Notes under the pieces: model-generated | What the model was told of the DNA's origin: nothing | What the model saw: the letters and a program-made list of their open reading frames with translations, nothing else | The model's database searches: none | Assembly (NCBI GenBank): GCA_022572685.1 | Contig: JACZVL010000011.1 | Location: 1-32,885, forward strand | DNA: 32,885 nt | DNA from: Pseudomonadota bacterium | GTDB lineage: Bacteria; Pseudomonadota; Alphaproteobacteria; Kiloniellales; J153 | Reading direction: 5' to 3' | Position numbers and translations under genes: made by a program | Part shown: positions 8,419-22,354 of the stretch, piece after piece | Layout of the letters: the number at the start of each line of letters is the position of its first letter | Numbering within the stretch: the first letter of the stretch is position 1

Positions 8419-8506
8419 GGCCGGGGCAACTTCGGGCCGGGGCAACTTCGGGCCGGGGCAACTTCGGGCCGGGGCAACTTCGGGCCGGGGCAACTTCGGG
8501 CCGGGG
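8419..8506. repeat. 5.5-copy perfect tandem repeat of 16-bp unit GGCCGGGGCAACTTCG
   Basis: Full copies at 8419-8434, 8435-8450, 8451-8466, 8467-8482, 8483-8498, plus partial ggccgggg 8499-8506. Confidence 0.97.
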
Positions 8507-21716: not shown

Positions 21717-21860
21717 GGCCGCTCCCCCTGGTTCGCCCGGCAATGGTTCGGCTCGCGCCGAGTCGCTCAGGTGGGAATCATGCCGTATCGGGACCGGGCG
21801 CACAACCACGCGCCCAAAGGGCCGCCCGGGGGGGCGACCAGGGGGCCCGCCAAGGGGCTT

Positions 21861-21946
21861 GGTGCGGCTGAGAGGACTCGAACCTCCACTCCCTTGCGAG
21901 AACTAGCACCTGAAGCTAGCGCGTCTACCAATTCCGCCACAGCCGC
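21861..21946 (-). tRNA. tRNA-Leu (anticodon CAG)
   Basis: Minus strand gcggctgtggcggaattggtagacgcgctagcttcaggtgctagttctcgcaagggagtggaggttcgagtcctctcagccgcacca; anticodon arm CTAGC-TTCAGGT-GCTAG; encoded CCA. Confidence 0.96.
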
Positions 21947-22002: not shown

Positions 22003-22266
22003 TTATACCAAAGGTCCTTAGTAATGACCCATAGAGACGGCTTCCCAAGGCTTTCGGCAAGGAGCGCGTGGCGTGGCGATGCGGGGCATCGCGAGCCATG
22101 CGGGACGCCGTCCGAAAACCTTGGGAAGCCGCCTCCGGTCGCGCGGGCGAACCGCCGGGGGCGTCGGGAAGCCTTGCCGATGTCCCACATCGCCGGCGGC
22201 TCCCCTCCTGCCCGGCGGATCGCCCGCGCGATCTCTATGGGTCATTACTAAGGACCTTTGGTATAA
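22003..22266. mobile_element. MITE-like fold-back element with perfect 35-bp terminal inverted repeats
   Basis: Left ttataccaaaggtccttagtaatgacccatagaga (22003-22037) is the exact reverse complement of 22232-22266; further nested inverted repeats; no transposase. Confidence 0.85.
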
Positions 22267-22267
22267 A

Positions 22268-22354
22268 TGGTGCGGCTGAGAGGACTTGAACCTCCACGGG
22301 GTTTCCCCCACAGCGACCTCAACGCTGCGCGTCTACCGTTTCCGCCACAGCCGC
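22268..22354 (-). tRNA. tRNA-Leu (anticodon GAG)
   Basis: Minus strand gcggctgtggcggaaacggtagacgcgcagcgttgaggtcgctgtgggggaaaccccgtggaggttcaagtcctctcagccgcacca; anticodon arm CAGCG-TTGAGGT-CGCTG; encoded CCA. Confidence 0.96.

Follow-up and report, generated by a model that had tools for sequence, protein, structure and literature searches.

What is the 264-bp inverted-repeat segment that fills the spacer between two tRNA-Leu genes in an alphaproteobacterial genome: a fixed structure of the tRNA operon or a mobile element and, if mobile, moved by which transposase? The window, that is, the whole 32,885-nucleotide stretch analysed here, lies in contig C54 of a metagenome-assembled genome (MAG; 3.23 Mb, 81% complete, 274 contigs). 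The initial annotation had proposed a mobile, non-autonomous fold-back element with 35-bp TIRs and a TA target duplication of the IS630/Tc1 type, which might act as a terminator or processing hairpin or target tRNA boundaries.

Structure and dispersal of the element

The described repeats, hairpin and tRNA spacing are all present in the window sequence. The sequence TTATACCAAAGGTCCTTAGTAATGACCCATAGAGA (22003–22037) has a perfect inverted copy at 22232–22266, an inner inverted pair (22038–22057 and 22112–22131) matches at 19/20 positions, and a gcgatgc-ggg-gcatcgc hairpin occupies 22076–22092. Comparison of boundaries over 103 two-ended copies confirmed the suggested mobile core of 258 bp (22006–22263); the outer 3 bp of each presumed 35-bp TIR are target flank, so that the true TIR is 32 bp long. 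The left TIR (22006–22037, plus strand; TACC...TGACCCATAGAGA) shows 0 mismatches to the right TIR (22232–22263, minus strand), as read from the sequence, and has the end layout common to IS630-branch ISs, with TACCAAGGAGCG at the element ends. The 32-bp end occurs twice in the window and 0 times in shuffled windows. The TNA flanks, delimited by flank statistics over 101 copies, are TTA on the left (22003–22005, plus strand) and TAA on the right (22264–22266, plus strand), the middle base of the latter being unlike that of the former.

The RNA fold of the element has an energy of −194.9 kcal/mol, whereas shuffled sequences average −112.4 (z = −16); the opposite strand gave z = −17. On either strand the TIRs pair into a long stem that carries two long imperfect hairpins, arm 1 (22038–22131) and arm 2 (about 22137–22231); the interior, not demonstrably coding, consists of these two palindromic arms rising from one stem. 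The part 129–264, which takes in arm 2, still matches in a second bacterial family. In the copy G000:C253:7748–7993 (L034), arm 1 is inverted relative to arm 2, which suggests that this arm flipped across the inverted repeat it contains. As in other MITEs, the element has TIRs, a size (258 bp) below about 600 bp and no transposase gene. An Rfam search found the two tRNAs only. Elsewhere in the window, at 8419–8506, lies a perfect 16-bp tandem repeat of 5.5 copies (GGCCGGGGCAACTTCG), flanked by an acyl-CoA synthetase-like ORF and a DsbA/FrnE-like ORF (names read from the ORFs).

Both neighbouring tRNA genes were predicted by ARAGORN on the minus strand: tRNA-Leu(GAG) (22268–22354), whose 3′ end is separated by 1 bp from the right TNA, and tRNA-Leu(CAG) (21860–21946), the downstream gene of the pair. 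This proximity of a tRNA 3′ end, together with the very stable fold on both strands, would suit a fixed cis-regulatory structure of the tRNA-Leu operon, either a terminator or a processing hairpin. As an origin of the segment such a structure is already refuted and keeps almost no probability: in 7/7 family relatives where the (GAG)–(CAG) pair was found, the two genes stand 67–133 bp apart with the same spacer empty, many copies occupy unrelated loci, one of them between pheS and pheT, and only 3/103 copies have a tRNA within 250 bp. The last count also gives no support to the targeting of tRNA boundaries. The window spacer of 321 bp comes down to about 60 bp once the element and one flank are subtracted, and the short spacer was probably a tolerable landing place for this copy. 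At the −35 proposed for tRNA-Leu(CAG), a consensus scan found no sigma-70-type promoter, which is weak evidence in an alphaproteobacterial host.

Sequence searches identified at least 16 copies, full or partial, in the same genome, and the element matched in 15 of 41 genomes (this one and 40 relatives), among them 7 of the 8 other family members; some genomes contain many copies. A segment that was single-copy and conserved at this locus in all relatives would have argued for a fixed structure; instead, copies are many and sites are occupied in one genome and empty in others, as is typical of dispersed MITEs, and the proposal of a mobile, non-autonomous element stands. The 103 distinct two-ended copies come nearly all from Kiloniellales/Rhodospirillales-type MAGs, and the commonest length is exactly 261 bp (46/103). 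A second subfamily, from another bacterial family, is 260–261 bp long and differs in the sequence of its arms but retains their two-armed arrangement. When GTDB contigs were scanned with part of an alternative end, the matches listed included MAGs and genomes of alphaproteobacterial or proteobacterial origin, among them that of Pelagibius sp. Alg239-R121. No phage and one plasmid matched the element, the latter over a short stretch. Because several copies lie at contig ends, these repeats probably break many MAG assemblies. Searches of the literature, by motif and by subject, found no paper on the repeat. The family is widespread in uncultured Kiloniellales and relatives, with no earlier description found, and a candidate helper is proposed for it below.

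Several variant forms were also observed. Minimal palindromes, in which the two ends are joined almost directly, occur at L208:7624–7668 and near L053:1494–1524, L261:5707 and L275:2712, one example being the 45-bp TACCAAGGAGCGTTGATAATGACTCATTATCAACGCTCCTTGGTA; some of them have TNA flanks. Solo ends, comprising TNA and about 25 bp of TIR, were seen at L101:653, L216:3851, L233:4910, L261:4645 and L246:697, none of them with a second end found close by; several have TTTCATGGG in common just inside. Five copies (L193, L212, L218, L253 and L160) are lengthened by inserts within the arms (a common 54-bp insert, a short tandem repeat or about 150 bp), their length still being a multiple of 3.

Target duplication and a candidate helper

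The part that stays constant over the 103 two-ended copies, TACC...GGTA, is flanked by TNA on the left in 88/101 and on the right in 87/101 copies, with C before in 54/101 and G after in 47/101. Of the 77 copies with TNA on both sides, 48 have identical middle bases, against a shuffle mean of 26.9 and a count reached in 0 of 20,000 shuffles; A/A (18) and T/T (25) pairs far outnumber A/T (8) and T/A (5), so that direct agreement is far above palindromic agreement. This agreement and the C/G context therefore indicate a 3-bp TNA duplication at C-TNA-G, and thus the target-site duplication expected of a MITE, although the window copy itself has unequal flanks (TTA/TAA). The TA duplication first proposed is ruled out by the direct repeat of the middle base and by a Paracoccus yeei reading frame, described below, that requires 3 bp. 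In this the family departs from canonical IS630/Tc1-mariner elements, of which ISY100 duplicates TA (PMC2170065).

The window copy is among 29 of the 77 copies whose middle bases are unequal, a share that exceeds what mutation alone easily explains; recombination between copies, mutation or an effect of the joining step could each contribute. An unequal TNA pair also flanks the IS L354, which lies beside an IS3 transposase gene, a setting in which rearrangement is likely.

The IS630 affinity suggested initially is upheld by the ends, which are common to a branch of IS630 ISs present in relatives and on Azospirillum, Paracoccus, Methylobacterium and Rhodovastum plasmids. These ISs have TACC ends, most have TGACT at the same spacing and most are flanked by identical TNA on both sides. 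The relative G001 holds two IS630-type (DDE_3) ISs with such ends, L312 and L319, some plasmid-borne relatives of which are annotated ISAli2 or ISAli3. The left end of the 1,166-bp, TTA...TTA-flanked L312, TACCAAGGAGCGCTTGAGTTGACTC, is identical to the MITE end at 20/25 positions, the first 14 consecutively, compared with 13/25 for its right end and 9–15/25 for other ISs of the branch. In Paracoccus liaowanqingii, a TTA/TTA-flanked IS of the branch interrupts a polysaccharide pyruvyl transferase gene, and once the IS and a single TTA are taken out, the resulting frame can be aligned over 106/106 amino acids with uninterrupted P. yeei genes. An IS630 branch thus makes a 3-bp TNA duplication within a family described as duplicating TA. 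Since the MITE has both the branch-type ends and the branch TNA duplication, as expected of an ISAli2/ISAli3-like IS630 derivative, the likely helper, judged by the TACC-N15-TGACTC end layout and the duplication in common, is an IS of this branch. In a Rhodovastum atsumiense plasmid (RHOApc, L360), a small element with TTA-TACCAATG...CATTGGTA-TTAG ends lies directly upstream of an IS630 copy and is apparently another MITE of the branch.

The initial annotation had suggested looking for a transposase-bearing element with the same TIR; the best match to the MITE end was the left end of L312, and within the window's own genome, an 81%-complete MAG, no transposase enclosed by MITE-type ends was found, and the DDE_3 matches were fragments or lacked such ends. 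As no intact helper was found there, we infer mobilisation in trans in this genome. Other candidate parents were set aside: loci with PF01609 and PF13586 (IS4/IS5-type) transposases lacked a matching end pair, the IS5-like L302 had a solo MITE end upstream only, the IS1380-like transposase next to one copy (L081/L088) was a neighbour and not its parent, and TIR pairs 0.6–2.2 kb apart (L212, L283, L284 and others) consisted of two MITEs, of ends paired by chance or of one MITE end plus ordinary genes.

An IS5/PIF-Harbinger-type transposase might also move the MITE, the likeness to IS630 ends then being convergent. IS1031-type IS5 and PIF/Tourist elements make TNA/TWA duplications at CTTAG-type palindromic targets, and the genomes studied contain IS5-type transposases; none of the IS5-type loci examined, however, is bounded by a pair of such ends. 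DDE_3 IS630 loci are, with the same end layout and TNA duplication, and we consider an IS5-type helper very unlikely. We therefore favour, with a probability of about 0.87, the reading that the window copy belongs to a MITE family moved in trans by ISAli2/ISAli3-like IS630 (DDE_3) transposases. Such a transposase would recognise the TACC-N15-TGACTC ends, excise the element by cut-and-paste and insert it at C-TNA-G, where fill-in would yield the TNA duplication.

Stop-codon sites and conserved shape

With a crude gene caller, 82 insertion sites were classified: 27 coincide exactly with the stop codon of a gene, 30 lie between genes and 25 were classed as lying inside genes. Stop codons account for 27/57 (47%) of the non-genic sites, compared with 45/228 (19.7%) of the non-genic CTNAG sites (Fisher p = 4e-5) and 6.7% of all CTNAG sites in the same DNA. 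Genes ending at copies encode PheS and CtaG-, RibD-, HtpX- and TopA-like proteins (names from reading the sequences), of which PheS and the CtaG-like gene only were compared with relatives. The gene terminating at the TSD in G000:C58 stops at the same residue (...VRGL) as PheS of the four relatives in which this end could be read. In relatives, pheT starts 8 bp after pheS in one case and the pheS stop overlaps an ATG in two, and in the window's own genome the element separates the pheS stop from the pheT start; a strong terminator or other strong block is therefore unlikely in this orientation.

The simplest reading of the stop-codon excess is retention. If the element inserts at a TNA that serves as a gene's TAA or TGA stop, on either strand, the duplication would rebuild this stop and leave the gene whole, which would explain the survival of such insertions under selection. 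This would offer a transposon a simple, testable route into operons that leaves the upstream gene unbroken. Active seeking of stop codons or gene 3′ ends, to which the persistence of the excess among non-genic CTNAG sites might point, seems to us improbable: rebuilding of the stop by duplication predicts retention without targeting, and none of 13 related IS630 ISs lies on a stop codon, as judged with the same crude caller in a small sample from other species. It is also unlikely, if not negligibly so, that the IS630-branch system is steered to gene ends and spreads a constrained, two-armed 261-bp element order-wide as a common 3′-UTR module; if so, the TNA duplication would leave stop-codon insertion nearly harmless.

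The two-armed shape itself is conserved. In 39 alignable 261-bp copies with a median ungapped identity of 0.835, 94.8% of cells are paired over 111 consensus pairs, and 54 pairs changed on both sides compared with at most 29 in column shuffles, which ignore relatedness and were applied to a consensus fold derived from the same sequences. Self-correction of the palindrome could also produce paired changes without selection, and for these reasons the covariation shows a conserved shape and not a proven function.

A translated peptide under selection, resembling Rickettsia palindromic elements and read in frame 0 from TACC on both strands, was also considered. Of the copies whose length preserves the frame, 37/55 read through frame 0 without a stop on the plus strand and 33/55 on the minus strand, and multiples of 3 make up 18 of the 32 distinct lengths (p = 0.006). 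Variability, however, does not differ by codon phase (p about 0.5), and the frame-0 peptides predicted from related copies match no Pfam or NCBIfam family. Most members of the second subfamily are 260 bp long and its 261-bp members contain stops; the window copy, too, has a frame-0 stop on each strand. We regard a selected peptide as highly improbable and the frequently open frame 0 as a curiosity.

Comparison with known systems

RUP, a MITE linked to IS630-Spn1, is 107 bp long with stops in all six frames, whereas the present family is about 261 bp and two-armed, with a 32-bp TIR and a TNA duplication. The likeness is that of a short non-autonomous element, thought in Streptococcus pneumoniae to be moved in trans by an IS transposase (PMC2229807). 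With ISAli2/ISAli3-like ISs of the IS630 branch, the MITE has in common the TACC...TGACT ends, the TNA duplication and the C..G context; these ISs, however, are about 1.16 kb long and carry a transposase, and of their sequence the MITE has the ends alone, its interior being unrelated. PIF/Harbinger-Tourist MITEs and IS1031-type IS5 elements resemble the family in their 3-bp TNA/TWA duplication within a CTNAG-like palindrome but use another transposase family, whereas the MITE ends match those of IS630-branch ISs. Correia/NEMIS and Rickettsia palindromic elements are palindromic and MITE-like, with open frames through some of them (PMC2229807); they have other ends and other hosts, and are fused into genes, whereas a large share of the copies described here lies on or after a stop codon. 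The CIR repeats of Caulobacter and Brucella are likewise alphaproteobacterial intergenic repeats whose RNA forms two arms (PMC2229807), but they have no closing terminal stem, whereas the arms of the present family stand on a long TIR stem.
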